From Zoogloeaceae bacterium G21618-S1 (GTDB lineage: Bacteria; Pseudomonadota; Gammaproteobacteria; Burkholderiales; Rhodocyclaceae): 64,000 nt of DNA. Below, piece after piece: positions 31,882-49,694 of this stretch. Numbering within the stretch: position 1 is the stretch's first letter; the number at the start of each line of letters is the position of its first letter. A program made the translations under genes and the position numbers. The notes below the pieces were generated by a model, which was not told where the DNA came from, made no database searches, and was given only the letters and a program-made list of their open reading frames with translations. Location: contig JAPWHF010000001.1 in the NCBI GenBank assembly GCA_027214125.1, positions 62,001 through 126,000 of the forward strand. Reading direction: 5' to 3'.

Positions 31882-31907
31882 CTCAACACTCTCAATAAAC
31901 ACCACTT

Positions 31908-31934
31908 ATGCGAGTATAGAATCAATTCTCGCAT
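31908..31934. promoter_or_regulatory. Inverted repeat between LysR and PrpF genes (likely LysR site)
   Basis: ATGCGAG (31908-31914) and CTCGCAT (31928-31934) are separated by 13 bases and enclose a smaller palindrome AGAATCAATTCT. A T-N11-A box fits the left part. TTGCATTTC follows at 31938-31946 and recurs at two other promoters of the cluster. Confidence 0.6.
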
Positions 31935-32007
31935 TTATTGCATTTCCGTCAGATCTTGTCGCGCTCTACCATGCAATCAAACAAGGCATGTGGATGGAGA
32001 CAAGCAA

Positions 32008-33102
32008 ATGGAGAAAATACCCTGTGTTCTGATGCGAGGCGGTTCCTCAAAGGGGCTGTTCTTCCTCGCGCAGGACTTGCCCGCTTCAACGGCAGCGCGC
32101 GATCGCCTGCTGCTGGCGGCCATGGGGTCTCCTGATCTGCGACAGGTCGACGGCATGGGTGGCGGCGATAGCCAGAGCAGCAAGGTGGTGATCGTCGGCC
32201 CGTCGAGCCGGCCCGATGCCGATCTCGAGCACCTGTTTGCTCAGGTGTCGGTGGCGCGCAACTTTGTTGATGTGCGACCCAACAGCGGCAACATGCTCTC
32301 CGGCGTCGCGCCCTTCGCCATTGACGCGGGGTTGATCCCGACGAGCTCACCGACCACCACGGTCCGCGTGCTCAACCTCAATAGCGGCAAGATCGCCGAG
32401 GTCATCGTTCAGACGCCCGGCGGTAAACTGACCTATGACGGTCGGTGCCAGGTCGATGGCGTGCCCGGCAGCTTTGCGCCGATCGAACTGCGCTTTCTCG
32501 ACCCGGCAGGCACCCGCACCGGCGTGTTGCTGCCCACCGGCAAGGCCCGCGAAGAAATCTGCGGCGTTGAAGTCACCTGTATTGATTGCGCGATTCCCCT
32601 GGTGCTGGTCAAAGCCGAAGCCCTCGGCAAGACCGGGCACGAATCCAAAGCCGAACTCGACGCCGATACGGAATTTTCGAATCGCCTGAAAACCATTCGC
32701 CTCGAGGCCGCCAGGCAGATGCGGCTCGAAGACAGCGAGAGCGTCGCCCTGCCCAAGATCGCCATTGTCGCGTCGCCGCGCCACGGCGGCAGCATCGCCG
32801 CGCGGTATTTCTCGCCGAAATGGTGCCATGCCACCTTCGGAATTTCTGGCGCGCTGGCACTGGCCGCCGCATGCCATGTGACCGGCTCGATTGCCGAGGA
32901 CCTGGTCGAGCTCGATGTCCGAAAACTCGGCCATATCATCATCGAACACCCGAGCGGCACGATGGCCTTCGATATCGACATTTCCGAGCACGACGATCAA
33001 GGCATCCCCGTGTTCAGACAGGCCCGCCTGATCACCACCGCTAGGCCATTGCTCAGTGGTGTCGTGCTCGTACCCGAACGGCTTGACCCCCAAGCCGCAT
33101 GA
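32008..33102 (+). CDS. PrpF/4-oxalomesaconate tautomerase-like isomerase, copy 1
   Basis: The 364-residue cytoplasmic protein belongs to the PrpF family (double diaminopimelate-epimerase fold). Motifs are MRGGSSKGLFF, QVDGMGGGDSQSSKV, NSGNMLSGVAPFAI and ASPRHGGSIAARYFSP. Family members shift a double bond or isomerise cis/trans tricarboxylic acids without a cofactor: 2-methyl-aconitate isomerase PrpF, oxalomesaconate tautomerase GalD, and fungal aconitate isomerase Adi1. In this cluster cis/trans-aconitate isomerisation is the best inferred role. Database pipelines would probably call it 4-oxalomesaconate tautomerase, but no gallate genes are present. The start at 32008 has GGAGA upstream; the open frame reaches much further but has no homology there. 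Confidence 0.88.
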   Translation: MEKIPCVLMRGGSSKGLFFLAQDLPASTAARDRLLLAAMGSPDLRQVDGMGGGDSQSSKVVIVGPSSRPDADLEHLFAQVSVARNFVDVRPNSGNMLSGVAPFAIDAGLIPTSSPTTTVRVLNLNSGKIAEVIVQTPGGKLTYDGRCQVDGVPGSFAPIELRFLDPAGTRTGVLLPTGKAREEICGVEVTCIDCAIPLVLVKAEALGKTGHESKAELDADTEFSNRLKTIRLEAARQMRLEDSESVALPKIAIVASPRHGGSIAARYFSPKWCHATFGISGALALAAACHVTGSIAEDLVELDVRKLGHIIIEHPSGTMAFDIDISEHDDQGIPVFRQARLITTARPLLSGVVLVPERLDPQAA

Positions 33103-33162
33103 CGGCGACATCGCCGCACAGCAAGCACAAAAAAACGAAATGGCGTGTGAGGAGACAACTCC

Positions 33163-33258
33163 ATGAACACAACATCAATGCTTTCACATACAGCCCAAAG
33201 GTCCACAGAGATCCGGCATACCAGGCCCACCGGCCTTAACAACACAGCATCGACTTGA
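33163..33258 (+). CDS. Possible 31-residue leader or small protein before tctC
   Basis: An ATG at 33163 is preceded by GAGGAG at ideal distance and opens a 31-codon frame (MNTTSMLSHTAQ...NNTAST) that ends 12 bases before the TctC ribosome site. The peptide is rich in Thr, Ser and Asn and has no hydrophobic segment. It may be a translated leader for the transporter genes or noise. It fills most of the 180-base gap after the PrpF-like gene. Confidence 0.3.
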   Translation: MNTTSMLSHTAQRSTEIRHTRPTGLNNTAST

Positions 33259-33281
33259 ACGACACATTAGGAGGAGCAATC

Positions 33282-34385
33282 ATGACCAAAAACATTACCC
33301 ATCGACGCAATTTCCTGGGCATGTCCGTGGCGCTCGCAACCGCCGCCTTCATCTCGCCCATGCCGGCCATGGCCGACGCGGTCGACTTCAGCGACAAGAC
33401 CATCGAATTCGTCATCCCGTTTGGCGTCGGTGGCGGTTCCGACACCTGGGCGCGCTTCAACGCACCCTTCCTGTCCAAGCACCTGCCCGGCCAGCCGACC
33501 GTGGTCGTCAAGAACCAGCCCGGCGGCGGCTCGATTACCGGCGCCAGCCAGTTCGCCTCCCGCGCCAAGCCGGACGGTCTGTCCATTCTGGGCACCTCGG
33601 GCTCGACGCAGTTCCCCTACCTGCTCGGCGATCCGCGCGTGAAGTACGACTACAAGGACTGGAAAGTCGTGCTCGCCGCACCGACCGGCGGTGTGGCCTA
33701 CATCAGCAGCAGCTTTGGCGTGAAATCGCTGGCCGACCTGGGCAAACTCAAGGGCCAGCGTCTGGTCTACGGCAGTCAGGGCGCCACCTCGCTCGACCTC
33801 GTTCCGCTGCTCGGCTTCCGTCTGCTTGGCCTCGATGTGCAGCATGTGTTCGGCATGAAGAGTCGGGGCGAAGGCCGCCTGGCTTTCGAGCGCGGCGAAG
33901 CCAACATCGACTACCAGACCACCTCGGCCTACCTGAAGAGCTCGCTGCCCATCGTGCAAGAAGGTAAAGCCGTTCCGCTGTTCAGCTGGGGCGCCACCGA
34001 CGACGATGGCAAGCTCATCCGCGACCCGAACTTCCCGGAGCTGCCGCACATCGGCGAAGCCATCGAGATGGTCACCGGCAAGAAGCCGTCCGGCACCGAG
34101 TGGGAAGCTTTCAAGTCCTTCCTGATCGCAGGTTTTCCGGCACAGAAGCTGTTGGTGCTGCCCAAGGGCACGCCTGACAACATCGTCGAGGCCTACCGCG
34201 CCGCCGTGCGCAAGATGAAGCTCGATCCGGAGTACCAGGCCGCGAAAGTCGAGGCACTGGGCGGTTACGAGCAACTGACCGACAAGGCCGGCGAGTCGCT
34301 CTTCAAGGAAGGCACGACCATCGACCCCAAAGCCCGTGACTGGGTCCGCGCGCTGCTCGAGAAAGAGTACAACGCGCGCTTCTAA
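33282..34385 (+). CDS. TctC/Bug-type tricarboxylate-binding protein, Tat signal
   Basis: The 367-residue precursor is the periplasmic solute receptor of a tripartite tricarboxylate transporter. The signal peptide has a twin-arginine motif (HRRNFLGMS, Arg8-Arg9) and ends near MAMADA, so export is probably through Tat. The mature protein shows the Bug family features IEFVIPFGVGGGSDTWAR, NQPGGGSITGASQFA and VYGSQGATSLDLVPLL. It delivers a carboxylate, by context a tricarboxylate such as tricarballylate, aconitate or citrate, to the adjacent TctA-TctB permease. The strong ribosome site AGGAGGAG precedes ATG 33282. Confidence 0.93.
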   Translation: MTKNITHRRNFLGMSVALATAAFISPMPAMADAVDFSDKTIEFVIPFGVGGGSDTWARFNAPFLSKHLPGQPTVVVKNQPGGGSITGASQFASRAKPDGLSILGTSGSTQFPYLLGDPRVKYDYKDWKVVLAAPTGGVAYISSSFGVKSLADLGKLKGQRLVYGSQGATSLDLVPLLGFRLLGLDVQHVFGMKSRGEGRLAFERGEANIDYQTTSAYLKSSLPIVQEGKAVPLFSWGATDDDGKLIRDPNFPELPHIGEAIEMVTGKKPSGTEWEAFKSFLIAGFPAQKLLVLPKGTPDNIVEAYRAAVRKMKLDPEYQAAKVEALGGYEQLTDKAGESLFKEGTTIDPKARDWVRALLEKEYNARF

Positions 34386-34395
34386 CGCTGACCGC

Positions 34396-34427
34396 CGTCA
34401 GGGTAACCACCATCGGCCGCCCTGACG
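34396..34427 (+). repeat. Hairpin between tctC and tctA
   Basis: CGTCAGGG and CCCTGACG form an eight-base stem in the 70-base gap after tctC. There is no T tract. Such hairpins often protect the upstream binding-protein mRNA and lower expression of the permease; that role is inference. Confidence 0.5.
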
Positions 34428-34455
34428 CACCAGCCACTCAATACTGGAGTTTCCA

Positions 34456-36468
34456 ATGCTAGAAGCCATGCAGAGCGCCTTTGTCGGCCTCCTCTCGTTT
34501 CAGCACTTCGCCTACATGCTGCTCGGCATTGTTGTTGGCCTCGGCGTGGGCATTCTGCCCGGCCTGGGCGGCATCGCAGGCATGTCGCTGCTGATGCCCT
34601 TCATTTACGGTATGGATCAGGTCTCCGCGCTGGCCATGCTCGTGGGCATGGTCGCCGTGATCCCCACCGGCGACACCTTTACCTCGGTTCTCATGGGTAT
34701 CCCCGGCTCAAGCGCCAGTCAGGCCACGGTGCTGGACGGATTTCCACTCGCCAAGAAAGGTCAGGCCGCTCGCGCACTGAGTGCCGCCTTCTCCGCCTCC
34801 TTGTTGGGCGGTGTATTCGGCGCACTGCTGCTGACCGGTTTTGTGGTTGTCGCCAAGCCGCTGATCCTGTCCTTCACCACCGCTGAACTGTTCATGTTCG
34901 CCCTGCTCGGGCTGTCGGTGGTCGGCGTGCTGGCCGGCGAAAGCATCATGCGCGGTGTCGTCACCTGCGGTCTGGGTCTGATGGTCGGCGCGATTGGCGC
35001 CGCCCCCGCCACCGGTGAAAGCCGCTTTGATCTGGGCATCGACTACCTGGTCGACGGCGTGCCGCTGGTCATCATCGGCCTGGGCCTGTTTGCCATCCCC
35101 GAGATCGCCGATCTGATCCGCCGCTCACGCCCGATCGCATCCGACTCCGGCCTGGGTGCCGGCTGGCTGCAAGGCGTGCGCGACACCTTCAAGCACTGGT
35201 TCCTGGTGCTGCGTTGCTCGGCACTGGGCACCTTCATTGGCGCCATCCCCGGCCTCGGCGGCGGCGTGGTTGACTGGATCGCCTACGGCCATGCCGTGCA
35301 GACCACAAAGGATTCATCCAACTTCGGCAAGGGTGAGATCAAGGGCGTGATTGCGCCGGAAGCGGCCAACAACGCACTGCAAGGCGGCGCGCTGATGCCA
35401 ACCCTGCTGTTCGGCATTCCCGGTTCGGGCAGCATGGCGGTGTTCCTCGGCGGCATGGTCCTGCTCGGGCTTCAACCCGGCCCGTCGATGGTCACCACCG
35501 ACCTCGAGCTGACCTACACCATCGCCTGGACACTGGCCTTCTCGAGCATCGTCGGCGCCGCCATCTGTTTCTTCCTGGCCGTGCCCATTGCCCGACTGAC
35601 CTTCGTGCCCTTCAACCTGATCGCCCCCTTCATGATCATGATCATCTGCTTCGCGGCCTTCCAGGCGCGGCGTGATTTGACCGATCTGCTGGTGCTGTTC
35701 GCAGTGGGCATTGTCGGCATCTTCCTGCGACGCTTCGGCTGGCCGCGGCCAGCCTTCCTGATCGGCTTCGTACTCTCGAGTCAGGCTGAAAACTACCTGT
35801 ATCAGGCACTGCAGTTCTACGGCTGGGAATTCGTTCAACGCCCGGGTGTGCTGATCATCGGCGCGCTCACCATCGCCTCCACGCTGATGGCCCTGCGTAG
35901 CCGGGTCTCTGAAGAAGGCGCGGTCACCAAAGAAGCCCGCGGCGAAGAAACCGACCGCCCGGTAATCGGCGGTGCCAACAAGGCTGAGCGTCGTCCGCAG
36001 ATCGTGTTCGCCGTGCTGCTGCTGGCCACCTTCCTGTACGGCGTGATGAGCAGCGCACCACTGAGCTTCCTGGGGTCGGTGTTCCCGTTCTACACCTCGG
36101 CGCTGATGGTCGCCTTCACCGGCTACATGCTGATGATGCTGTTCGTGGCCAAACCGGGGCACAGCTCGCACTACGACCAGGAGCTGGCGGCCAAGGTCAA
36201 GGGCGCGGATGACGGCACCACCGTCTGGCCGTCCGTGGGCTGGTTCGTGTTCCTCTTCAGCATGACCGCTGTACTCGGTTTCATCATCTCGATCGCGATC
36301 TTCATCACGACCTTCCTGATGGTGCGCACCCAGCTCGGCGTGGCCCGCAGCCTGCTCTACACCGGTCTGTGCATCGCCTTCATGAGCACGCTGGGCCACT
36401 ACCTGACGCTCGACTTCCCGGCTGGCCTGCTGCAGCACTACGTCGAGATGCCCTGGCCGCTCAAATAA
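34456..36468 (+). CDS. TctA-TctB fusion: tripartite tricarboxylate transporter permease
   Basis: The 670-residue inner-membrane protein combines the large subunit TctA (residues 1 to about 500, about 12 membrane helices; motifs GILPGLGGIAGMSLLMPF, GIPGSSASQATVLDG, GAIPGLGGGVVDW) with a C-terminal part of about 140 residues. That part has four membrane helices typical of the small subunit TctB (from about 520: FAVLLLATFLYGVMSSAPLSFLG, SMTAVLGFIISIAIFITTFLM). In most TTT systems TctB is a separate gene, and no separate tctB is present here. It takes up the ligand bound by TctC, driven by an ion gradient. The start ATG is at 34456, after GGAG. Confidence 0.93.
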   Translation: MLEAMQSAFVGLLSFQHFAYMLLGIVVGLGVGILPGLGGIAGMSLLMPFIYGMDQVSALAMLVGMVAVIPTGDTFTSVLMGIPGSSASQATVLDGFPLAKKGQAARALSAAFSASLLGGVFGALLLTGFVVVAKPLILSFTTAELFMFALLGLSVVGVLAGESIMRGVVTCGLGLMVGAIGAAPATGESRFDLGIDYLVDGVPLVIIGLGLFAIPEIADLIRRSRPIASDSGLGAGWLQGVRDTFKHWFLVLRCSALGTFIGAIPGLGGGVVDWIAYGHAVQTTKDSSNFGKGEIKGVIAPEAANNALQGGALMPTLLFGIPGSGSMAVFLGGMVLLGLQPGPSMVTTDLELTYTIAWTLAFSSIVGAAICFFLAVPIARLTFVPFNLIAPFMIMIICFAAFQARRDLTDLLVLFAVGIVGIFLRRFGWPRPAFLIGFVLSSQAENYLYQALQFYGWEFVQRPGVLIIGALTIASTLMALRSRVSEEGAVTKEARGEETDRPVIGGANKAERRPQIVFAVLLLATFLYGVMSSAPLSFLGSVFPFYTSALMVAFTGYMLMMLFVAKPGHSSHYDQELAAKVKGADDGTTVWPSVGWFVFLFSMTAVLGFIISIAIFITTFLMVRTQLGVARSLLYTGLCIAFMSTLGHYLTLDFPAGLLQHYVEMPWPLK

Positions 36469-36510
36469 GCCCGACAGCTCATTTGATTTCAACACGCTTT
36501 TTCTGATCCC

Positions 36511-36549
36511 GCACCTGTCCGCCCGCACTGGCGGGCGACAGGCAGGTGC
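36511..36549 (+). repeat. Hairpin between the permease and hydratase genes
   Basis: GCACCTG and CAGGTGC form the outer stem and CGCCCGC / GCGGGCG the inner stem. It lies in the 112-base gap after tctA, with no T tract, and may be an operon-internal RNA processing or attenuation element. Confidence 0.5.
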
Positions 36550-36580
36550 CCCGCCCGTACCCGACGGAGGACGCAACACC

Positions 36581-37426
36581 ATGAATCTCAAGGACTGGAT
36601 CGGCCGCTCGGAAGCAGTCTCCGATATCGCCACTGCCACCCCCTACGCCGCCTTGTCGGCCACGTTTGACCGCCCAGCAGAGCGCCCCGCCGCCGGCACG
36701 CCGCTGCCCGGCCTGTGGCACTGGCTGTACTTTCTGCCGCTGCACCGCCAGTCGGAAATCGGCCCGGACGGCCACGCCAAGCGCGGCGGTTTTCTCCCAC
36801 CCGTGCCGCTGCCGCGTCGCATGTGGGCCGGTAGCCAATTCACCTTCCACAAGCCGCTGCGCATCGGCGACGCCATGACGCGCACCTCGACCATCCACGA
36901 CGTGACCGAAAAGAGCGGCCGCACCGGCCCGCTGGTCTTCGTCAAGGTGCGTCACGAAATCTGCCGCGACGGCGAAACCGACATCGCGCTGACCGAGTTC
37001 CACGACATCGTATATCGCGAGGCGGCCAAGCCCGACGACGTCGCCCCACCGCCCAAGGCCGCGCCGGCAACGTCCACCTGGGAAAAGCAGTGGGTGCCCG
37101 ACGACGTGCTGCTGTTCCGCTACTCGGCGCTGACCTTCAACGGCCACCGCATCCACTACGACCGCAAGTATGTGACCGAGGTGGAAGGCTATCCCGGCCT
37201 GATCGTGCACGGCCCGATGGTGGCCACCATGCTGCTCGACCTGCTGCGTCATCAGTTGCCCGATGCCGAGTTGGCCAGCTACGAGTTCCGCGCCGTTCGC
37301 CCGGTGTTCGACATCAACCACTTCTTCGTCTGCGGCGAGCCGCAGCCCGATGGCAAGACCTTCCGCCTGTGGGCGAAAGATCACGAAGGCTGGCTGACCA
37401 TGGAAGCCACCGCGGTGATCAAGTGA
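36581..37426 (+). CDS. MaoC/FAS1-like hydratase, likely itaconyl-CoA or mesaconyl-C4-CoA hydratase
   Basis: The 281-residue double hot-dog protein has an N-terminal FAS1-dehydratase-like half (about 10-150, with PPVPLPRRMWAGSQFTFHKPLRIGD) and a C-terminal MaoC half with the active-site run FRYSALTFNGHRIHYDRKY (about 185-205) and LIVHGPMVATMLLD. This architecture is shared by mesaconyl-C4-CoA hydratase and the itaconyl-CoA hydratase (Ich) of itaconate degradation. It sits directly before a family III CoA-transferase and a CitE-like lyase, exactly the enzyme set needed for itaconate -> citramalyl-CoA -> pyruvate + acetyl-CoA. The start ATG follows GGAGGA. Confidence 0.87.
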   Translation: MNLKDWIGRSEAVSDIATATPYAALSATFDRPAERPAAGTPLPGLWHWLYFLPLHRQSEIGPDGHAKRGGFLPPVPLPRRMWAGSQFTFHKPLRIGDAMTRTSTIHDVTEKSGRTGPLVFVKVRHEICRDGETDIALTEFHDIVYREAAKPDDVAPPPKAAPATSTWEKQWVPDDVLLFRYSALTFNGHRIHYDRKYVTEVEGYPGLIVHGPMVATMLLDLLRHQLPDAELASYEFRAVRPVFDINHFFVCGEPQPDGKTFRLWAKDHEGWLTMEATAVIK

Positions 37427-37436
37427 GGAATGAACA

Positions 37437-38618
37437 ATGAGACCCCTTGAAGGCATTACCGTCGTTACCCTCGAACACGCCATCGCGGCGCCCTTCGCTA
37501 CCCGCCAGCTCGCCGATCTCGGCGCGCGCGTGATCAAGGTCGAGCGCCCCGGCGTGGGCGACTTCGCCCGCGGCTACGACGAACGCGTACGCGGCATCGC
37601 CTCGCATTTCGTGTGGATCAACCGCTCCAAAGAATCGCTGACGCTGGATGTGAAGCATCCCGAAGCACAAAAGGCGCTCCTCAAGCTGATCACCGAGGAA
37701 GCCGACGTGGTGGTGCAGAACCTCGCCCCCGGCGCGGCGGCCCGTCTCGGTCTGTCCTACGAAGCGCTGTCGGCGATCAAGCCCGAGATCATCGTGTGCG
37801 ACATCTCCGGCTACGGCGCCGACGGCCCCTACCGCGACAAGAAGGCCTACGACCTGCTCATTCAGAGCGAATCCGGCTTCCTGTCCGTGACTGGCACCGA
37901 GGAGGAACCCTGCAAGGCCGGCCCTTCGATCGCCGACATCTCGGCCGGCATGTACGCCTACACCAACATCCTCGCCGCGCTGATGCAGCGCCAGAAGACC
38001 GGTCGCGGCCAGCACCTCGACATCTCGATGCTCGAGAGCCTGGTGGAGTGGACCACCTACCCGCTCTACTACGCCTTTGACGGCGCCGCCCCGCCGCCGC
38101 GCACCGGCGCCAGCCACGCCACCATCTACCCTTACGGCCCCTTCCCGGCCGGCGACGGCAAGACGGTGATGTTCGGCCTGCAGAACGAGCGCGAATGGGC
38201 CGGTTTCTGCGCCAAGGTCCTGCTGCAGCCCGACCTGGCCCGCGAGGAGCGATTCTCGACCAACTCCCGACGCAGCGCCGCCCGCGTGGAACTGCGCCAG
38301 ATCATCGTCGACGCCTTTGCCGATCTGAGCGCCGAGCAGGTGGTCGAACGCCTCGACGCCGCGAGCATCGCCAACGCGCAGGTCAACGACATGCATGCCG
38401 TGTGGGATCACCCGCAGCTCAAGGCGCGCAAACGCTGGCGCAACATCGAAACCTCGGTCGGCACGGTGCCGGCCCTTCTGCCGCCGGGCTCGTGGGAAGA
38501 AGGCGATCCGCGCATGGACCCGGTGCCCGCGCTGGGCGCGCACTCCGCCGCCATCCTCGCCGAACTCGGCTACACGGCCGAGCAGGTCGCCGAGCTCAAG
38601 TCCGCCGGCGTGATCTGA
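37437..38618 (+). CDS. CaiB/BaiF family III CoA-transferase, likely itaconate CoA-transferase
   Basis: The 393-residue cytoplasmic enzyme activates a carboxylic acid by CoA transfer. The family catalytic Asp is Asp167 in AGPSIADISAGMYAY; other marks are ADLGARVIKVERPGVGDFAR and NRSKESLTLDVK. In context it would move CoA from succinyl-CoA or a similar donor to itaconate, mesaconate or a related C5 acid, like Ict of Pseudomonas aeruginosa. It starts 10 bases after the hydratase, with GAGGAA before the ATG, and 18 bases before the lyase, so the three form a unit. Confidence 0.9.
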   Translation: MRPLEGITVVTLEHAIAAPFATRQLADLGARVIKVERPGVGDFARGYDERVRGIASHFVWINRSKESLTLDVKHPEAQKALLKLITEEADVVVQNLAPGAAARLGLSYEALSAIKPEIIVCDISGYGADGPYRDKKAYDLLIQSESGFLSVTGTEEEPCKAGPSIADISAGMYAYTNILAALMQRQKTGRGQHLDISMLESLVEWTTYPLYYAFDGAAPPPRTGASHATIYPYGPFPAGDGKTVMFGLQNEREWAGFCAKVLLQPDLAREERFSTNSRRSAARVELRQIIVDAFADLSAEQVVERLDAASIANAQVNDMHAVWDHPQLKARKRWRNIETSVGTVPALLPPGSWEEGDPRMDPVPALGAHSAAILAELGYTAEQVAELKSAGVI

Positions 38619-38636
38619 GCACCGAGGAGACGCGCC

Positions 38637-39458
38637 ATGACCCAGCCCATCAGCTACCTCTTTGTGCCCGGCAACCGCCCGGAACGCTTCGACAAAGCCT
38701 TCGCCACCGATGCCGGCGTGATCATTCTTGATCTCGAAGACGCGGTCGTGCCGGCCGACAAGGCCGGCGCCCGCGACGCCATCGCCAACTGGGTGGCATC
38801 GCACGGTGATGCCGCCAAGCGCATCACCGTGCGCATCAACGACACACAGTCCGAATGGTTTGCCGACGATCTGACGATGATCCGCGAGTCCGGCATCGGC
38901 GTGGTGATGCTGCCCAAAAGCGAATGGCGCGAGCAGATCGACCTCGTCCGCGCCACGGCCACCCAGGCGCAGGTACTGGCCCTGGTCGAAACCGCTCGCG
39001 GCATCCACAACGTCGACCAGATCGCCACCACCGAGGGCGTCGCCCGGCTGGCCTTTGGCACGCTGGACTATGCCGTCGACCTCGACCTGTCGGGCGACGA
39101 CGCCGGGCTGGCCTACGCCTCATCGCGCATCGCCATCGCCGCGCGCTGCGCCGAATTGCCTTCACCGGTGGCCGGGGTCACCCCTTCGGTCACCGACGAA
39201 GCGCGCGTGCTCGCCGACTTCGCCTTCGCCCGGGCCTTCGGCTTCGGCGCAAAGATGTGCATCCACCCCAAGCAGGTGGACTGGATTCACGCCGCCTGCC
39301 GACCCAGCGCCGAAGACCAGGCCTGGGCGCATCGCGTGCTGGCCGCCGCCGAAGCCTCCGAAGGCGCGGTGCAGCTCGACGGAAAAATGATCGACCGGCC
39401 GGTGGTGCTCAAGGCACAGGCCATTATCGCCCGCAGCCACGCAGACGAACCGAACTGA
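38637..39458 (+). CDS. CitE-like lyase, likely (S)-citramalyl-CoA lyase
   Basis: The 273-residue protein belongs to the HpcH/HpaI/CitE TIM-barrel family. Visible are the CitE opening YLFVPGNRPERFDKA, the metal-site segment LDLEDAVVPADKAGARDAI, ALVETARGIHNVDQIA and GFGAKMCIHPKQVDWIH. Members cleave malyl-, citryl- or citramalyl-CoA with Mg2+. Next to the hydratase and CoA-transferase the expected reaction is (S)-citramalyl-CoA -> pyruvate + acetyl-CoA, as for Ccl of itaconate catabolism. The ribosome site GAGGAGA lies eight bases before ATG 38637. Confidence 0.88.
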   Translation: MTQPISYLFVPGNRPERFDKAFATDAGVIILDLEDAVVPADKAGARDAIANWVASHGDAAKRITVRINDTQSEWFADDLTMIRESGIGVVMLPKSEWREQIDLVRATATQAQVLALVETARGIHNVDQIATTEGVARLAFGTLDYAVDLDLSGDDAGLAYASSRIAIAARCAELPSPVAGVTPSVTDEARVLADFAFARAFGFGAKMCIHPKQVDWIHAACRPSAEDQAWAHRVLAAAEASEGAVQLDGKMIDRPVVLKAQAIIARSHADEPN

Positions 39459-39508
39459 CACCCCATTCAAAACAACACCGAATCCCCCCCAATTCAAGGA
39501 GCAACACC

Positions 39509-40864: not shown

Positions 40865-41052
40865 CAATGCAACACGCACACTTCACCGAGCTAACCACGC
40901 AACAGCTCGACTGCCCGGTGCTGTTCGGCTCAATCAGCGACACGGGCTGCCGGGCACCGGGCCAGGCCGGCGAACGCGCCGACAGCGCTAATCTCGACGC
41001 GCACCGGCCATTGAGCGAACTGGCCATGGTGGCCATATTGAGCGAGAACTGA
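40861..41052 (+). CDS. Possible 63-residue gene coupled to the PcaB-like lyase
   Basis: The frame starts with ATGA overlapping the lyase stop codon, a usual translational-coupling arrangement, and ends just before the operon terminator. The protein (MTMQHAHFTELTTQQLDCPV...) has no signal or membrane segment and two Cys, and I know no relatives. It could be a small operon protein or a chance frame. Confidence 0.35.
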   Translation: MTMQHAHFTELTTQQLDCPVLFGSISDTGCRAPGQAGERADSANLDAHRPLSELAMVAILSEN

Positions 41053-41058
41053 CTCGCG

Positions 41059-41104
41059 CTTGAGGCGGGCTGGCCGCAAGGCCATGCCCGCCTCAAGCAT
41101 TTTT
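41059..41104 (+). terminator. Terminator of the transporter/itaconate-type operon
   Basis: Twelve-base arms CTTGAGGCGGGC and GCCCGCCTCAAG are followed by CATTTTT. It closes the plus-strand operon that begins at 32008 or 33282 and separates it from the second LysR gene. Confidence 0.9.
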
Positions 41105-41122
41105 GAACAGGCATATGAAGCG

Positions 41123-42058: not shown

Positions 42059-42141
42059 CCCGATCTTGGGTCGGCGTTGGGTGGCCGGCGCCAAAACAAC
42101 GATAGTCGATGGCAACCGAGCAACACACAGGAGTTCGACCC

Positions 42142-43566
42142 ATGAAAGAAAAGCATCCCGGCACCGTCGACGTGCTGGTCATTGGCGGCGGCAACGCCGC
42201 GCTGTGCGCCGCGCTGATGGCGCGCGAAGCCGGCGCCTCGGTGCTGCTGCTCGAAGCCGCACCGCGCGAATGGCGCGGCGGCAACTCCAGCCACACCCGC
42301 AACCTGCGCTGCATGCACGACGCCCCGCAGGACGTGCTGACCGAGCGCTACCCCGAAGAAGAATTCTGGCAAGACCTGCTCAAGGTCACCGGCGGCATGA
42401 CCAACGAAAAGCTCGCCCGCCTGGCGATCCGCGAGTCCTCGAGCTGCCGCGACTGGATGCGCAAACACGGCGTCAATTTCCAGCCCTCGCTGTCCGGCAC
42501 CCTGCACCTGTCGCGCACCAACGCCTTCTTCATGGGCGGCGGCAAGGCACTGGTGAATGCCTATTACCGCAGCGCGGAAGCGCTGGGCGTGCGCATCCGC
42601 TACGAGGCGCCGGTCGATCGGATCGAACTGGAAAACGGCGTGTTCCGCGCCGCCTGGGTTGGCGATGAACGCATCGCTGCGCGCGCCTGTGTGATGGCCG
42701 CCGGCGGCTTCGAGTCCAACCGCGAATGGCTGCGCGAGGCCTGGGGGCAAAACGAAAACGGGGAGTGGCCGGCCGACAACTTCGCCATCCGCGGCACCCG
42801 CTTCAACCGCGGCGTGCTGCTCAAGGCCATGATCGACGCTGGCGCCGACATGATCGGCGACCCCTCCCAGTCTCATTGCGTGGCCATCGACGCGCGCGCC
42901 CCGCTCTACGACGGCGGCATCTGCACCCGCATCGACTGTGTGTCGCTGGGCATCGTGGTCAACAAACACGCCGAGCGCTTCTACGACGAAGGTGAAGACT
43001 TCTGGCCCAAGCGCTACGCGATCTGGGGTCGTCTGGTGGCGCAACAGCCCGGTCAGATCGGCTTCTCGATCATCGACGCCAAAGCCAACGGTCGCTTCAT
43101 GCCGCCGGTGTTTCCCGGCGCCAAGGCGGACACGCTTGAAGAGCTCGCCCGCCAGCTCGGCATCGACGAAGCGGCTTTTGTGCGCACCGTTCGCGAATAC
43201 AACGCCGCCTGCCACGTCGGCACCTTCGACCACACCGTGCAGGACGACTGCCATACCGAGGGCCTGTCGCCGGCCAAGACCCACTGGGCACTGCCGATCG
43301 ACACCCCGCCCTTCCGTGGCTATGCGCTCAAGCCCGGCATCACCTTCACCTACCTGGGCCTGAAAGTGAATGAGCAGGCCGCCGTGCATTTTTCGGATGT
43401 GCCGAGCCCCAACCTGTTCGTGGCCGGCGAAATGATGGCCGGCAACGTGCTCGGCAAGGGCTACACCGCCGGGGTCGGCATGACCATCGGCACCACCTTC
43501 GGCCGCATCGCCGGCGCTCACGCCGCGGCTGCCGCGCGCCAAGGAGAATCCCATGCAATCGCTTGA
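42142..43566 (+). CDS. tcuA: FAD-dependent tricarballylate dehydrogenase
   Basis: The 474-residue flavoprotein of the fumarate reductase/succinate dehydrogenase family has the dinucleotide motif [19 protein letters not shown] at its start and the C-terminal FAD contact [20 protein letters not shown]. TcuA oxidises tricarballylate to cis-aconitate; its FADH2 is reoxidised by TcuB. The internal run [12 protein letters not shown] near residue 50 is typical of this subgroup. The start ATG 42142 follows CAGGAG; an ATG 33 bases upstream is less likely. Its 3' end overlaps tcuB by 14 bases. Confidence 0.9.
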
Positions 43567-44722
43567 AGCCCTCGCCCGCGAAGCCACTGATCTGGCCGCC
43601 GGACGCAATCTGCCGGCGCTCAACGCCGATGAGGCCGAAGTCGGCCGCATCCTGCAGATCTGCAACGCCTGCCGCTACTGCGAAGGCTTCTGTGCGGTCT
43701 TTCCGGCCATGACCCGGCGCCTCGCCTTCGACAAAGCCGATGTGCACTATCTGGCCAATCTGTGCCACAACTGCGGCGCCTGCCTGCACGCCTGCCAGTA
43801 CGCCCCGCCGCATGAATTCGCGGTCAATGTGCCGCAGGCCATGGCCACAGTGCGCGCCCGCACCTACTCGGATTTCGCCTGGCCGGCTGGCTTCGGCAAG
43901 CTGTATCGCAACAATGGCATCACCGTCGCACTGGCCGTGGCGGGCGGCCTGGCGCTGTTCCTGGTGCTCGCGCTGATGGTCCAGGGCACGCTGTTTCATA
44001 CGCCGCTGGCCGGCAACTTCTACGCCATTTTTCCGCACAATCTGCTGGTCTCGATGTTCGCGCCGGTCTTCCTGTTTGCGGCGCTGGCGCTGGGTATCGG
44101 CGTCGCGCGTTTCTGGCGCGAGGCGGCCCCCGGCGCCGCCAGCGGCGCGGCCATCGCCGAGACCACGCATGATGTACTGCGCCTGACCTACCTCGATGGT
44201 GGTCACGGCCAGGGCTGCAACAACGCCGATGACGCCTTCACCCTGGCGCGGCGGCGTTACCACCATCTGACCTTCTACGGCTTCATGCTGTGCTTTGCCG
44301 CCACCAGTGTGGCCACGCTATATCACTACGTGTTTGGCTGGGAAGCGCCCTACGCCTTCACCAGCCTGCCGGTGGTACTCGGCACGCTGGGTGGCATCGG
44401 CCTGCTGATCGGTCCGGCCGGCCTGTTCTGGCTGAACCTGAAGCGCCACCCCGAGCATGGCGACGCGGCGCAAAAGCCGATGGATCGCGGCTTCATCGCC
44501 CTGCTCTTTTTCACCAGCCTGACCGGCCTGGCCTTGCTCGCCGGACGCGACACCCCCGCCATGGGCCTGCTGCTGGCGGTGCATCTGGGCGTGGTGATGG
44601 GCCTCTTCCTGACCATGCCCTACGGCAAGTTCGCCCACGGCTTTTACCGCAGCGCAGCGCTGCTCAAGTGGGCGATCGAGAAGCGGCGCCCCAATCCGGT
44701 CGGCGTCGGGAACGATGGCTAA
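43553..44722 (+). CDS. tcuB: TcuB: membrane Fe-S/heme electron transfer partner of TcuA
   Basis: The 389-residue protein carries two 4Fe-4S ferredoxin motifs (Cys37/40/43/47 in [11 protein letters not shown] and Cys71/74/77/81 in [11 protein letters not shown]). About six membrane helices follow from residue 125 onward, with candidate heme His in the helices ([22 protein letters not shown]). TcuB takes electrons from reduced TcuA and passes them to the quinone pool, so tricarballylate oxidation is linked to respiration. The ATG lies inside the tcuA end, with AAGGAG upstream. Confidence 0.92.
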
Positions 44723-46016
44723 GCCTTCGCAAGACGATGAACGTACGAGGCCGGCAACACCGGCGCGTGGCCAAGCCTGGCGCGCGCTGGCCTCGCCGGC
44801 CTACCGGCGTTATTTCTTCGGCCAGCTATTGTCACTGGTGGGCACCTGGATTCAACAGGTGGCGCTCGGCTGGCTGGTCTATCGACTCACCGACTCGACG
44901 GTGCTACTGGGCGCCGTGGCTTTTCTGAGCAACGCCCCGCAACTGCTGGTGGCGCCCTTTGCCGGCATCGTCATCGACCGCAGCGACCGCAAACGCCTGA
45001 TGCTGCAGATCCAGACGCTAATGCTGGCGCAGGCGGTGTTCCTGGCGGTGTTCACCTATTTCGGCTGGCTCGAGCCCTGGCTGATTCTCGTCGCCGCCGG
45101 CGTGCTGGGGGTGCTCAACAGCTTCGACGCGCCGCTGCGGCATTCGCTCGCAGGGCAACTTGTGGGCCGTCGCGATGACATTCCGAACGCCATCGCACTC
45201 AATACCTTGACTTTCAATGTGGCCCGCTTCGTCGGCCCGCCGACCGCCGGGCTCTTGCTTGCCGCCACCTCGGCGGCCGTGTGCTTCGCGGTCAATGGCG
45301 TGTCTTTCCTGGCCTTGATTCTGGCGCTTCGACGCATCGACAGCCCTTCGTCGCGCCCCTCGCCGGTGTCATTTCGTTCTGCCCTGCGCGAAGGTCTCGC
45401 CTATGTCCGCGGCAGCGTGCCCGTGCGGATGTTGTTGATCCAGGTTGCCTTGGTAAATTTTTTCGCCGCCAGCTATCTGCCGATGATGCCGGCCTTCGCC
45501 CGCGATGTGTTTCAGGGCGGGCCCAACACCCTCGGCGTACTGCTCGGCAGCGCCGGCGCGGGCGCACTGGTGGCCTCGGTGTATCTGATGTCACGCCCCT
45601 CCGTGCGCGGCCTCACTGGCAGCATCCTCCACGCCAGCGTGCTCGCCGGCACGGCGCTCATCGGCTTTGCGCTCACCGCCGAGCTATGGCTTGCCCTGGT
45701 CCAACTGTTCCTGCTCGGCTTCAGCATGATCGTGTGCAACGCATCGAGTAACACCATCCTCCAAACGATTCTGCCCGAGGGGCTGCGCGGACGCGTGCTG
45801 GCGCTCTACACCGCGGCCAATCTCGGCGCCGCCGCGGCCGGTGGCCTGGCGGTGGGTTGGGTCGCCGACGCGATGGGCCCCGATGCCGCCTTGCTGTCGG
45901 CCGGGCTATTGCTGGTGGCGGTGGGCGTCCGCTTTTCGCTGCGGCTCGAATTCATGCGAGTGCACCTGCGACCGCTGTATGCCGCTCAGGGCGTTGCGCC
46001 ACGCACGATAGACTGA
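44715..46016 (+). CDS. MFS transporter (EntS-like MFS_3 group)
   Basis: The 433-residue protein has 12 predicted membrane helices, opening [35 protein letters not shown] in part, with the MFS loop [15 protein letters not shown]. It belongs to the enterobactin-exporter-like group rather than to the MHS symporter group of TcuC, so it is not a clear tricarballylate importer. It overlaps tcuB by eight bases and is followed after 27 bases by the dehydrogenase gene. Export of a pathway intermediate or an unrelated function are both possible. Confidence 0.88.
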
Positions 46017-46043
46017 TTTCGCGATAGCTCCGGAGACCGACAC

Positions 46044-47015
46044 ATGAACCGAATCACCGTGCTGGACGACTATCAGGGCGTCGTGTCGCGACTCGACGCT
46101 GCACGCCTGCTCGACGGTATCGATGCCCGCCTGCAGGTGCTGCACGAGCCCATCGACACCGAGGCCGCACTCATCTCGGCACTACGCGGCACCCGTTGCC
46201 TGGTGCTGATCCGCGAGCGCACCACCATCACCGCCGCGGTGATCGCCGCCTTGCCCGAGCTTGAGCTGATCGTCCAGACCGGACGCCTGGCCGGCTGCAT
46301 CGACCTCGACGCCTGCGCACGGCATGGGGTTGAAGTGCGTGACGGCAGCGGCAACCCGATCGCCCCGGCCGAGCTGACCTGGGCGCTGATATTGGCCGCC
46401 TCGCGCCGCCTGGTGCCCTACGTCCGCCAGCTCGACGCCGGGCGTTGGCAGCGCAGCGCCGAGCGGCGCGAAGACGAAGCCCTGGGCACCGTGCTCCATG
46501 GCCGCACGCTCGGCATCTGGGGCTACGGACGCATCGGCGCACGGGTGGCGAGCTTCGGCCGCGCCTTCGGCATGCGGGTGATCGCGCATGGGCGCGAGGG
46601 CTCACGCGGCGCCGCCGAGCAGGCGGGTGACCACTTTGTTGCCGACCGCCAGCACTTTTTCTCACAGGCCGATGTGCTCAGCCTGCATTTGCGGATGACA
46701 CCCGACACACGGCACATCGTCACCGCCGAGCACCTGGCCGCCATGCCACCGCACGCCCTGCTGGTCAACACCAGCCGCGCCGAGCTCGTCGCGCCCGGTG
46801 CCGTACTCAACGCACTGGCAGCCGGTAGGCCAGGTTCTGCCGCGCTCGACGTGTTCGAAAATGAGCCGACCGGCGTGCAGGCCTATCTGAGCCATCCTCG
46901 CATTCTGTGCACGCCCCACCTCGGCTTTGTCGAGCACGACACCTACGAGGCCTATTTCGAGAACGCATTCGCGCATGTGAGGACCTTTCTGCACGAAAAT
47001 CCGCGCACCAATTAA
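46044..47015 (+). CDS. D-2-hydroxyacid dehydrogenase family protein
   Basis: The 323-residue NAD(P)-dependent dehydrogenase shows the Rossmann fingerprint LGIWGYGRIGARVASFGRAFG in part (about residues 153-173). The catalytic set is Arg in LLVNTSRAELV, Glu in DVFENEPTG and His in TPHLGF. The family reduces 2-oxoacids or oxidises D-2-hydroxyacids. Close to pyruvate-, oxaloacetate- or 2-oxoglutarate-forming genes it might handle a side product, but the substrate is unknown. GGAG lies ten bases before the ATG. Confidence 0.9.
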   Translation: MNRITVLDDYQGVVSRLDAARLLDGIDARLQVLHEPIDTEAALISALRGTRCLVLIRERTTITAAVIAALPELELIVQTGRLAGCIDLDACARHGVEVRDGSGNPIAPAELTWALILAASRRLVPYVRQLDAGRWQRSAERREDEALGTVLHGRTLGIWGYGRIGARVASFGRAFGMRVIAHGREGSRGAAEQAGDHFVADRQHFFSQADVLSLHLRMTPDTRHIVTAEHLAAMPPHALLVNTSRAELVAPGAVLNALAAGRPGSAALDVFENEPTGVQAYLSHPRILCTPHLGFVEHDTYEAYFENAFAHVRTFLHENPRTN

Positions 47016-47034
47016 TGCAATTTACGCACCAAAA

Positions 47035-47068
47035 CGACAATATATTGCATTTCTAACATTTATCGCAT
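47035..47068. promoter_or_regulatory. Regulatory-like AT-rich region before the second PrpF gene
   Basis: This stretch in the 99-base gap holds TTGCATTTC (47045-47053) and the half-site TCGCAT (47063-47068), both of which recur at the 31908 and 48232 sites of the same cluster. It is the most AT-rich point of the region and probably contains the promoter. Confidence 0.4.
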
Positions 47069-47114
47069 CACGCCAGAATGGGTTGCTCACAGTCGTTCGG
47101 ACAACGAGGAACCC

Positions 47115-48212
47115 ATGTTCAAAAACATCCCCTGCACCTTGATACGCGGCGGCACCTCGAAGGGGCCGTACTTCCAGGCCCATGATTTACCAAGCGAGCC
47201 GGCCGAGCGGGACCGGATTCTGCTCGCGGCCATGGGCTCGCCCCATATCCGCCAGGTAGACGGCATTGGCGGTGGCGACACCCTCTCCAGCAAGGCGGTG
47301 ATCGTCAGCCCGTCAACACAGACCGGCATCGACATCGAATACCTGTTTGCTCAGGTGTCGGTCGATCAGTCGAGCGTAGACACCATGCCCAACTGCGGCA
47401 ACATGCTGGCCGGCGTCGGCCCGTTTGCGATCGAGAACGGACTGGTCGAGGCTCAGCATCCGGTCACGACGCTGCGCATCCTCAACCGGAACACCGGCAA
47501 GATCGTCGAATCCATCGTACAAACGCCCGGCGGGAAAGTGACCTACGACGGCGACACCCGGATTGACGGCGTACCCGGCACTGGCGCGCCCATCGTGCTG
47601 AACTTTCTCGACGCGGCGGGCGCCAAGACCGGCAAGCTGTTTCCAACCGGGCAGCGTATTGACCGCGTCGGCGACATCGACGTGACCTGCATCGACTTCG
47701 CCTCGCCGCTGGTCTTCGTGGCGGCCGAATCGCTCGGGCGAACCGGGCATGAAACCCGGCAGGAACTCGACGCCGACAGCGACCTGAAAGCCCGACTCGA
47801 AACCATTCGCCTTGAGATTGCGCTGCGCGCCGGCATGGGCGATGTCCGCCAGTCCGTCCTGCCAAAGATCGCGCTGGTCGCCTCACCGGCGTATGGCGGC
47901 ACCATCACGTCGCGCTATTTCACCCCCTGGACCTGCCACTCCGCCTTTGCGGTGACAGGTGCGCTGTGCCTGGCCGCAGCCTCGAGCATTGAAGCCACGG
48001 TGCCATCGCGCTACGCCCGGCGCTCGGCGGATGACCCCGACTTGATCCGCATCGAGCACCCCGCCGGCGGCCTCGACATCCGCATGGGCCTCGACCCGCG
48101 CTCAAGCCCGGATGCGCCGCATTTCGCGGTGGCCGGCCTGGTCCGCACCGCGCGCCCGCTGTTCATCGGCCTCGTCCACGTGCCGCTCGACAAAGCCAAG
48201 ACCGCCGCCTGA
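47115..48212 (+). CDS. PrpF/4-oxalomesaconate tautomerase-like isomerase, copy 2
   Basis: The 365-residue protein is a diverged paralogue of the gene at 32008-33102. It has the same fold motifs: LIRGGTSKGPYF, QVDGIGGGDTLSSKAV, NCGNMLAGVGPFAI (with a Cys where copy 1 has Ser) and ASPAYGGTITSRYFTPW. The Cys in the N-C-G-N motif is the usual catalytic position of the diaminopimelate-epimerase fold; the Ser in copy 1 may change its chemistry. It is expected to isomerise an unsaturated tricarboxylate. It has its own upstream AT-rich region and a ribosome site (GAGGAA). Confidence 0.88.
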   Translation: MFKNIPCTLIRGGTSKGPYFQAHDLPSEPAERDRILLAAMGSPHIRQVDGIGGGDTLSSKAVIVSPSTQTGIDIEYLFAQVSVDQSSVDTMPNCGNMLAGVGPFAIENGLVEAQHPVTTLRILNRNTGKIVESIVQTPGGKVTYDGDTRIDGVPGTGAPIVLNFLDAAGAKTGKLFPTGQRIDRVGDIDVTCIDFASPLVFVAAESLGRTGHETRQELDADSDLKARLETIRLEIALRAGMGDVRQSVLPKIALVASPAYGGTITSRYFTPWTCHSAFAVTGALCLAAASSIEATVPSRYARRSADDPDLIRIEHPAGGLDIRMGLDPRSSPDAPHFAVAGLVRTARPLFIGLVHVPLDKAKTAA

Positions 48213-48231
48213 AAAACCGTGCCTTTTATCG

Positions 48232-48246
48232 ATGCGAACATCGCAT
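48232..48246. promoter_or_regulatory. Perfect LysR-type box before the OprD porin gene
   Basis: ATGCGA-ACA-TCGCAT is a perfect 15-base palindrome that contains the T-N11-A LysR consensus. It lies 146 bases before the porin start, and its half-sites match those of the inverted repeat at 31908-31934. Confidence 0.6.
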
Positions 48247-48377
48247 AAATAGGCACTGACAATGCATTTCAAAGCATCAATGAAGCTCGCCATACTTTGG
48301 CCAAGCTAGCGGGATCAGACACAGCTTGCCGCAGCCCTAGCCCTGACGACATACCCAGAACAAACCGAGGAGACACC

Positions 48378-49694
48378 ATGAAGCAGCAGCGCATTCCCCT
48401 ACTGATCCAGATCCTGGTCGGAAGCCTGGCCCTGGCCGGCACCGCATCGGCCGCCGACACCAAAGGCCATTCGCTGGAACTCAAAGCCCGTGGCATTTAC
48501 TTTGACCGCGACTACGAAAACGACGCCAACGACCGCAGCCAATCGGCCCTGGGTCTGCAGCTGAACTACGAGTCGCCCTACTACTGGGACTTCATCGGTA
48601 TCGGCCTGTCCGGCTACAGCGTGACCGAACTGGGCGCCAGCGGCCGCCTGACCTCCGACATCCTGTCGGTCGACAAGGACGGCGATGTGCATGACTCCTT
48701 CGGCAAGCTGGGCCAGGCCTTCATCAAGTTGAAGTACCAGGACATGGTCAGCGCCAAGCTCGGTCGCCAGGTGCACAAGAGCATGCTGCTGAGCAGCTCC
48801 GGCAGCCGTGCCATCCCCAACTCCTTCTCCGGCGGTACGGTTGAAGTGAAGCCGATGAAGGGCCTGAAATTCTATGGCGCGATGTACAACGAATGGTCGC
48901 CGCGCTCCGACGCACATTTCTACGAGTTCAAGACTGACCGCTCTACCGAAGGCGACATCGAGTACATCGGTCTGGTCGGCGTGAGCTACGACTCCGGCCC
49001 CTTCAGCATCGACTTCGAATACCTCAAGGCCGACAACTTCCTGAGCAAGACCGGTCTGGTGGCGTCTTACACCTTCGCCCTGGCCAACAAATCCAAGCTG
49101 AAGCTCACCGGCGGTGTGCACGCCTCGCGTGACGATGGCGACCTGTTCGTGACCGGCTCGGAAAGCAGCGAGCTCGATGACGAAGACGTCGCAGGGTCGG
49201 TCGCCGGCAAAACCGCCAGCGACAACGACGGCCTCGGGGTGTATGTGGCGGCCGACTGGACCTTTGGCAACGTGCTGTTGGGCGGCGCCCTGTCCAAGTT
49301 CGACGGTGCATGGATCGAAGACAACTTCGCCGGCGATCACGGCACCAACGCCTTCCCCACCGGCGGCGTGCTGGCTGACTTCTCCAACCGTGACGAACTG
49401 GTGTGGATGCTCAAAGCCGGTTACGACTGGAAGGATTACATCAAAGGCCTGAAAACCACCCTCAGCTACAAGAAAGGCACCGGCGCACGCAACAGTCATG
49501 TCCCCTCGCTGGGCGAAGCCGACGAGAGCGAATGGGCCCTCGACGTGCGCTACGCGATCCCGGTCGTCAAAGGCCTGGCGCTTCGCTACACCTACCTCGA
49601 GTACCAGTCTGACAAGACCGGCCGTCTGGATGGCGTGAAAGAGAACGAACGCGATCATCGTCTGTACCTCGACTACACGTATCGCTTCTTCTGA
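48378..49694 (+). CDS. OprD-family outer-membrane porin
   Basis: The 438-residue precursor has a signal peptide (ILVGSLALAGTASA-ADT) and an outer-membrane beta-barrel with the OprD family pattern: HSLELKARGIYFDRDYEN, LKYQDMVSAKLGRQVHKSMLL, LALRYTYLEYQSDKTGRLDGVKENERDHRLYLDYTYRF (given in parts), ending in Phe as outer-membrane proteins do. OprD-type channels admit small carboxylates and amino acids. Position after the second PrpF gene and a LysR-type box suggest that it brings the pathway substrate across the outer membrane. Start ATG 48378 follows GAGGAG; the upstream extension is not coding. Confidence 0.9.
   Translation: MKQQRIPLLIQILVGSLALAGTASAADTKGHSLELKARGIYFDRDYENDANDRSQSALGLQLNYESPYYWDFIGIGLSGYSVTELGASGRLTSDILSVDKDGDVHDSFGKLGQAFIKLKYQDMVSAKLGRQVHKSMLLSSSGSRAIPNSFSGGTVEVKPMKGLKFYGAMYNEWSPRSDAHFYEFKTDRSTEGDIEYIGLVGVSYDSGPFSIDFEYLKADNFLSKTGLVASYTFALANKSKLKLTGGVHASRDDGDLFVTGSESSELDDEDVAGSVAGKTASDNDGLGVYVAADWTFGNVLLGGALSKFDGAWIEDNFAGDHGTNAFPTGGVLADFSNRDELVWMLKAGYDWKDYIKGLKTTLSYKKGTGARNSHVPSLGEADESEWALDVRYAIPVVKGLALRYTYLEYQSDKTGRLDGVKENERDHRLYLDYTYRFF

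Follow-up and report, generated by a model that had tools for sequence, protein, structure and literature searches.

Which acids would an 18-kb gene block of Zoogloeaceae bacterium G21618-S1 allow its host to consume, and do the encoded enzymes belong to one route? The block lies in a stretch of 64,000 nucleotides (contig JAPWHF010000001.1, positions 62,001 to 126,000; "the window", whose own numbering is used here), and an original prediction had read it as a complete locus for breaking down tricarballylate and aconitate through itaconate to pyruvate. We found a divergent LysR gene and 14 plus-strand genes (30988-49694), with all named genes present and their reading frames intact, and we consider it quite likely that the block is a tricarboxylic-acid catabolic locus with itaconate as an intermediate. 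Assigning the window proteins to families by Pfam and NCBIfam profiles with their cut-offs confirmed the predicted inventory of OprD porin, TctC, TctA, TcuA and TcuB, two PrpF proteins, a lyase, a MaoC hydratase, a coenzyme A (CoA) transferase and a CitE-like protein. The predicted limits held as well, position 49694 coinciding exactly with the porin stop codon and position 31908 falling within the 126-bp gap between LysR and prpF1. To this inventory we add three genes inside the block, for a second LysR regulator (41123-42058), an MFS transporter (44715-46016) and a D-2-hydroxyacid dehydrogenase (46044-47015).

The enzyme that would form itaconate is encoded at 39509-40864 (plus strand, as are all block genes below unless stated otherwise), and we call this member of the aspartase/fumarase superfamily (Lyase_1, 134 bits) Tad, a predicted trans-aconitate decarboxylase. 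It had been labelled a PcaB/Tad1-superfamily lyase; the Tad1 part of that label is supported by tree, residues and Foldseek, whereas the PcaB part fails on curated cut-offs and on clade. Among PDB sequences its best match was Tad1 of Ustilago maydis (526 bits, 55% identity), ahead of 3c8t (456 bits, 49%) and two PcaB chains (367 and 339 bits; 41% and 40%), and across 58 columns in which three PcaB sequences agree and Tad1 differs, the window lyase matched Tad1 at 26, PcaB at 18 and neither at 14. A 62-row tree placed the window lyase, Tad1 and 38 bacterial proteins in a 40-row clade (support 100/99). The branch separating this clade was recovered in 100% of 200 bootstrap trees, and the 3c8t group and the PcaB group (11 rows each) both lay outside it. 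A 70-row tree with the long rows still included returned the same clade, with Tad1 beside a Komagataeibacter plasmid protein. Evaluating residues revealed 11 columns in which 95% or more of the 41 rows of the Tad clade share a residue that is absent from the 3c8t and PcaB groups (I79, L98, T112, S154, N155, G239, K257, S277, Y292, A306 and S370 in window lyase numbering). Among these, S277 aligns with Tad1 S320 and is serine in 41/41 Tad-clade rows, with alanine in 10/11 3c8t-group rows and glycine in 10/11 PcaB rows. Outside these columns, R317 aligns with Tad1 R360, an arginine common to all three groups. Both Tad1 positions vary between the Tad1 chains in the PDB, whose titles name the variants S320A and, in complex with trans-aconitate, R360A. 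Foldseek with an AlphaFold2 model of the lyase (predicted local distance difference test, pLDDT, 81.9) ranked Tad1 chains at all of positions 1-12, with template modelling (TM) scores of about 0.8. By sequence the lyase is a Tad, a member of the Tad1 clade and not of the PcaB clade. It is the one PcaB/Tad-type gene of the 4.39-Mb host genome (next best match 38 bits), and its nearest relatives in named genomes come from Azoarcus sp. L1K30 (94% identity) and from metagenome-assembled genomes (MAGs) of Thauera (92%), a Proteobacteria bacterium (91%), Rhodocyclaceae (90%) and a Betaproteobacteria bacterium (89%), which makes it probable that the host belongs to the Rhodocyclales.

Two further observations concern this lyase family. 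Fungal Tad1 is nested inside the bacterial clade in both trees, and because of this position the trees suggest that the fungal tad1 gene came from bacteria, its exact place within the clade being less sure and moderately supported (forks 86/74 and 92/88 in the 62-row tree). The 3c8t-containing sister group has a setting of its own: at the plasmid loci L041, L042, L043 and L045 its lyase gene is accompanied by genes for a GntR regulator and a dicarboxylate symporter, and at L042 and L043 also by one for a class II fumarase.

Immediately upstream of tad, three itaconate-degradation enzyme types stand together at 36581-39458 with gaps of 10 and 18 bp. The first, Ich (36581-37426), is a predicted itaconyl-CoA hydratase of MaoC type/FAS1_DH (Pfam 45.5 bits, cut-off 22), single-copy in the host genome, with two PDB matches at E <= 0.001, namely 8khg (234.1 bits), named itaconyl-CoA hydratase, and 8huc (231 bits), a MaoC_dehydrat_N domain-containing protein of equal length. 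It is followed by Ict (37437-38618), a family III CaiB/BaiF CoA-transferase (PF02515, 353 bits) for which itaconate is the predicted acceptor, and by Ccl (38637-39458), a CitE-like predicted (S)-citramalyl-CoA lyase (Pfam 117.8 bits) whose best PDB matches were 8khl (164.6 bits) and 9nzb (164.5 bits; acyl-CoA lyase beta chain), the next reaching 108.6. We take 8khg and 8khl to be from Pseudomonas aeruginosa.

Searching 84,980 species genomes for the lyase, we took the best 80 of at least 593 relatives and located neighbouring genes by tblastn of the window proteins with our own thresholds, giving 58 loci with a lyase of at least 72% identity and 22 below 72%. Among the 50 of these 58 loci with at least 4.5 kb upstream, the hydratase was found in 46, the CoA-transferase in 44 and the CitE-like lyase in 38, such that at least one of the three occurred in 47/50 and all three in 36/50. 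Across all 58 loci, Ich (48 loci) and Ict (47) were always upstream of the lyase on the same strand; the CitE-like gene was upstream in 40 of 41. PrpF was present in 31/58 loci, and TcuA and/or TcuB lay nearby in 16/58 (plus L099 from the lower-identity set). In 11 of these 16 loci (e.g., L046, L067, L086) the Tcu genes are downstream of the lyase and share its strand; where they are on the opposite strand, they lie downstream in L051, L055 and L056 and upstream in L072 and L082. Co-occurrence of the whole set, which the original prediction had proposed to look for, thus recurs, with Tcu, PrpF and all three itaconate genes together in 11/58 loci (L046, L047, L048, L049, L067, L071, L072, L073, L082, L086, L114), so this strain is not alone in having the combination. 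Since, by a rough estimate, the chance that two single-copy genes of a 5-Mb genome lie no more than 10 kb apart is about 0.4%, this linkage is not explained by chance, and the set is found together in other genera. The core also occurs on plasmids: those of Bradyrhizobium sp. CB82 and Variovorax sp. SRS16 have the CitE-like gene as well, whereas two plasmids from Azospirillum and one from Cupriavidus gave no match to it. Within the host's own order, 28/399 genomes (its own included) carried a lyase relative at E <= 1e-100, only five others reaching 73-76% identity. Locus L050, with hydratase, CoA-transferase, CitE-like and tad homologues, comes from a MAG titled Bordetella parapertussis, a title that may be misassigned. 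Trans-aconitate is probably the core substrate, and tricarballylate would be an additional starting point at the smaller share of loci.

The remaining modules would bring acids to Tad. TcuA (42109-43566, with a start at 42109 or 42142), a flavin adenine dinucleotide (FAD) tricarballylate dehydrogenase (NF006130, 773.9 bits, cut-off 369), is single-copy in the host genome and precedes its 4Fe-4S membrane partner TcuB (43553-44722; NF011607, 699.7 bits, cut-off 524). Uptake genes comprise TctC (33282-34385; PF03401, 39.3 bits, cut-off 27), the tricarboxylate-binding protein of a tripartite transporter, the TctA permease with a C-terminal TctB-like part (34456-36468) and an OprD-family outer membrane porin (48378-49694; PF03573, 117.3 bits, cut-off 25). 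The TctA-TctB uptake originally proposed stood for TctA (PF01970, 390.3 bits) and not for the TctB half, which is weakly supported (23.8 bits vs cut-off 29.1). Elsewhere, 23/40 PrpF open reading frames (ORFs) from 37 loci continue into a TctC domain (e.g., L038, 18164-20188), which ties the isomerase to tricarboxylates and hints that its substrate is one of them. The fusion is odd in joining a presumably cytosolic enzyme to a C-terminal substrate-binding domain that is normally periplasmic.

From clade and context we infer that these modules join into one route, a step of the original argument that homology, tree, residues and conserved context all support. External acids would enter via the OprD porin and then the TctC-TctA(B) transporter. 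TcuA would oxidise tricarballylate to cis-aconitate, with TcuB re-oxidising TcuA, and a PrpF isomerase, most likely PrpF2, would convert cis-aconitate to trans-aconitate, at which point external trans-aconitate would join. The Tad homologue would then decarboxylate trans-aconitate to itaconate and CO2, Ict would transfer CoA from succinyl-CoA to itaconate, Ich would hydrate itaconyl-CoA to (S)-citramalyl-CoA, and Ccl would split (S)-citramalyl-CoA into pyruvate and acetyl-CoA. The predicted net conversion is of a six-carbon (C6) acid to CO2, pyruvate and acetyl-CoA, with aconitase bypassed. The genes, their families and clades and their conserved linkage are observed directly; the reactions in the host, its substrate range and the regulation described below are predictions from sequence.

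Several observations weigh against this route, the first of them concerning the isomerases. PrpF1 (32008-33102; Pfam PrpF, 345.6 bits) keeps the family's lysine and has a natural serine in place of the usual catalytic cysteine. The same replacement occurs in the PrpF1 relatives of L048, L049 and L114, the L047 relative being cut by a contig end. Passages of PMC5690661 report that the C107S variant of Shewanella oneidensis PrpF had undetectable activity in vitro and some function in vivo. PrpF2 (47115-48212; Pfam PrpF, 377.8 bits) keeps both lysine and cysteine, as read from its translation, and because PrpF1 lacks the cysteine and C107S showed no activity that could be detected in vitro, PrpF2 is the candidate, and the more likely of the two, for the cis/trans-aconitate isomerase, with PrpF1 a predicted aconitate isomerase or accessory protein; the two need not both act on aconitate. 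Both proteins also pass the NF033377 cut-off for 4-oxalomesaconate tautomerase (PrpF1 441.9, PrpF2 484.1 vs 440), as does a Variovorax PrpF-TctC fusion beside a tad block (488.7), and we take this label as too broad. When the two were placed in a tree beside YbhH, LigU, Mii and a methylcitrate-type PrpF of the host (its third PrpF, above the methylcitrate PrpF cut-off, 446.3 vs 440.55), PrpF1 and PrpF2 formed a clade each on weak deep branches; with no characterised aconitate isomerase among its rows, this tree did not separate the functions.

Other points in this direction come from the itaconate enzymes, the model, the host and the wider clade. Neither Ccl (RipC_Ccl, 148.1 vs 375 bits) nor Ict (best, succinate-glutarate CoA-transferase, 253.4 vs 750) reaches any curated NCBIfam cut-off, so that their names rest on gene order, best matches and context. 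In the lyase model, pLDDT drops below 50 in loops 263-285 and 316-321, which hold S277 and R317. The host has three aconitase-family ORFs, two of them about 930-950 codons long, which could give aconitate a direct, parallel way into the tricarboxylic acid (TCA) cycle. Of the 33 loci whose sequence extends 8 kb or more to either side, 9 have neither Tcu nor PrpF. In the lower-identity set of 22 loci (lyase under 72%), any of Ich, Ict or Ccl is present at five, namely L125 and 4 of the 18 that have 4.5 kb or more upstream. All nine distinct lyases of this kind put in the trees, that of L125 among them, fell inside the Tad clade, and since few such loci carry itaconate genes, a place in the clade is not by itself a sign of the route. 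In Xanthobacteraceae and related bacteria (L104-L111, L113, L115-L124), most Tad-clade genes have no itaconate genes nearby, L117 and L119 being exceptions, and the stand-alone genes L104, L109 and L113 have some neighbours in common, none of them from this block.

The alternative that survives best splits the block into two side-by-side modules, in which TcuAB and PrpF would feed cis-aconitate to the TCA cycle, Ict-Ich-Ccl would serve external itaconate, and the lyase would play a minor part. Such a split would draw on the host's aconitase-family ORFs and on TarA of Bacillus velezensis, a PrpF-superfamily protein that isomerises aconitate toward cis-aconitate (in excerpts of PMC11495376). It sits badly, however, with the lyase as a steady neighbour of Ich, Ict and Ccl in the 50 informative loci above and with Ich and Ict lying upstream of it on the same strand wherever found, and a Tad-clade enzyme using trans-aconitate would produce the very substrate of the itaconate module; we regard the split as unlikely.

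Slightly less probable again is that the lyase clade uses another tri- or dicarboxylate, as kin of the 3c8t group, and that the route leads from a different branched acid to itaconate. The different context of the sister group (GntR, lyase and symporter, with fumarase at two of the four loci) and the absence of itaconate genes at some Tad-clade loci speak for it, whereas Tad1 itself lies within the clade at 100/99 support with the clade-only residues in common, and TcuAB, PrpF and the PrpF-TctC fusions indicate aconitate-like acids.

We think it very improbable that the block serves, like the Ustilago cluster, to produce itaconate and release it through the MFS protein as exporter: the U. maydis cluster does likewise have Adi1, Tad1 and an MFS exporter (sections of PMC4720413), but this block combines tricarboxylate uptake with predicted itaconate breakdown genes, and an MFS gene lies near the lyase in only 3/58 loci.

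For ring cleavage in the host genome, PF00775 (intradiol dioxygenase) gave 0 matches, with 4/14 control genomes positive, and a PF02900 search gave no protocatechuate- or gallate-type extradiol enzyme (LigAB, GalA), the single LigB-family protein matching 4,5-DOPA dioxygenase best (192.8 vs cut-off 233). Least credible of all, and already largely refuted, is an aromatic pathway in which the lyase would be a PcaB-type 3-carboxy-cis,cis-muconate cycloisomerase and the PrpFs oxalomesaconate tautomerases; public annotation does label relatives pcaB or 4-oxalomesaconate tautomerase, and the match to gallate or protocatechuate enzymes that the original prediction had named as contrary evidence was found for the PrpFs by their NF033377 label only and not for the lyase (489.6 vs 595 and 343.1 vs 355.75 bits at the PcaB cut-offs, and outside the PcaB clade), so that we rejected this assignment on curated cut-offs, tree and the two genome searches.

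Returning to the catabolic route through itaconate, its genes are likely organised in operons because the core gaps are short (10, 18 and 50 bp from Ich through Tad) and the tcuA, tcuB and MFS genes overlap. LysR regulator 1 (30988-31881, minus strand; Pfam HTH_1 72.2 bits, LysR_substrate 154.6) is divergent from prpF1 and is predicted to control the block. The 126-bp divergent control region (31882-32007) holds TTTATTGCATTTC, of which TTGCATTTC is a part. TTGCATTTC also occurs in the divergent regions of L048, L049 and L114 (by eye, with no statistics) and is possibly a LysR operator. At 34 loci a LysR homologue (35-77% identity) lies divergently ahead of one of the set's genes, 22 of these pairs being spaced by 400 bp or less. 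LysR regulator 2 (HTH_1 74.8 bits, LysR_substrate 118.4) stands before tcuAB, and a LysR gene precedes TcuA in L046, L047, L049 and L114 too.

Between tcuB and prpF2 (44715-47015), the EntS-like MFS transporter (PF05977, 223.5 bits), whose gene overlaps tcuB, and the D-isomer specific 2-hydroxyacid dehydrogenase (PF02826, 166.7 bits; present in 7/58 loci) have no obvious pathway step, and the MFS protein is possibly an exporter or importer of an acid. Adjoining the block on the minus strand (49808-53985) is a set encoding an alanine/ornithine-racemase-like protein, overlapping a DUF1611/DgcN-like protein, and then an MlrC-type M81 peptidase. Among 10 flanking ORFs scanned, nine belong to ordinary chromosomal families, including valyl-tRNA synthetase, M17 aminopeptidase, MacB/HlyD/outer-membrane export proteins and fructosamine kinase, and one is without any family.

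With rather less assurance than for the block itself, though still on the side of the probable, we favour a broader reading. It posits a widespread, undescribed, aconitase-independent bacterial route from trans-aconitate (and tricarballylate where TcuAB is linked) to itaconate, whose decarboxylase, annotated in the PcaB/adenylosuccinate lyase family, belongs to the bacterial family that gave rise to fungal Tad1 and whose isomerase is fused to TctC in many, mostly Burkholderiales, loci. If true, this would be the first bacterial trans-aconitate decarboxylase found in the literature searched and would give bacteria a natural internal source of itaconate, such that ict-ich-ccl genes need not indicate defence against host itaconate. 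It would also offer many candidate enzymes for bio-based itaconate production and a way to test bacterial use of trans-aconitate made by plants such as maize and sugarcane, point to possible bacterial ancestry of a fungal pathway, and correct the database labels pcaB and 4-oxalomesaconate tautomerase.

How does the block compare with known systems? TcuAB makes cis-aconitate from tricarballylate, and in the Salmonella tcuABC system, which takes up its substrate through TcuC, this product feeds the TCA cycle. The block here resembles that system in its adjacent TcuA and TcuB, both well over curated cut-offs, and differs in the linkage of TctC-TctA and an itaconate branch.

In U. maydis, Adi1 isomerises aconitate and Tad1 decarboxylates trans-aconitate to itaconate, as passages of PMC4720413 describe. 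That cluster likewise pairs a PrpF-family isomerase with a Tad-clade decarboxylase (the two lyases being 55% identical), yet it is fungal and biosynthetic and exports itaconate, whereas the block here is bacterial and combines uptake with predicted itaconate breakdown.

The reactions of Ict, Ich and Ccl on itaconate are set out in parts of PMC12290011 and PMC9875883, and the itaconate clusters of P. aeruginosa (PA0878-0886) and Cupriavidus necator have the same three enzyme types. According to the same excerpts, those clusters use itaconate or methylsuccinate and include acyl-CoA dehydrogenase and MmgE/PrpD genes, whereas here tad, tcuAB and prpF lie beside ict-ich-ccl. The words "tad1" and "tricarballylate" are both absent from PMC12290011, and no Tad or Tcu gene is named in the excerpts of PMC9875883.

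The tarR-tarAB system of Bacillus velezensis is alike in having a regulator, a PrpF-superfamily isomerase and an importer for trans-aconitate; it turns trans-aconitate into cis-aconitate and, in the parts of PMC11495376 that describe it, has no decarboxylase, the words itaconate and decarboxylase being absent from that text. Portions of PMC13188880 similarly have trans-aconitate interconverted with cis-aconitate and do not use the terms itaconate or decarboxylase. Among the matches listed from open-licence full text, with subscription literature outside this scope, there was no bacterial trans-aconitate decarboxylase and no tricarballylate-to-itaconate route. Searches of the same full text found no paper on the Tad1 structures, and a phenotype-directed search gave nothing usable among its listed matches. 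Set against these systems, the enzyme types of the block are all known, the gene combination is new to the open-licence literature searched, and the set recurs in many species.

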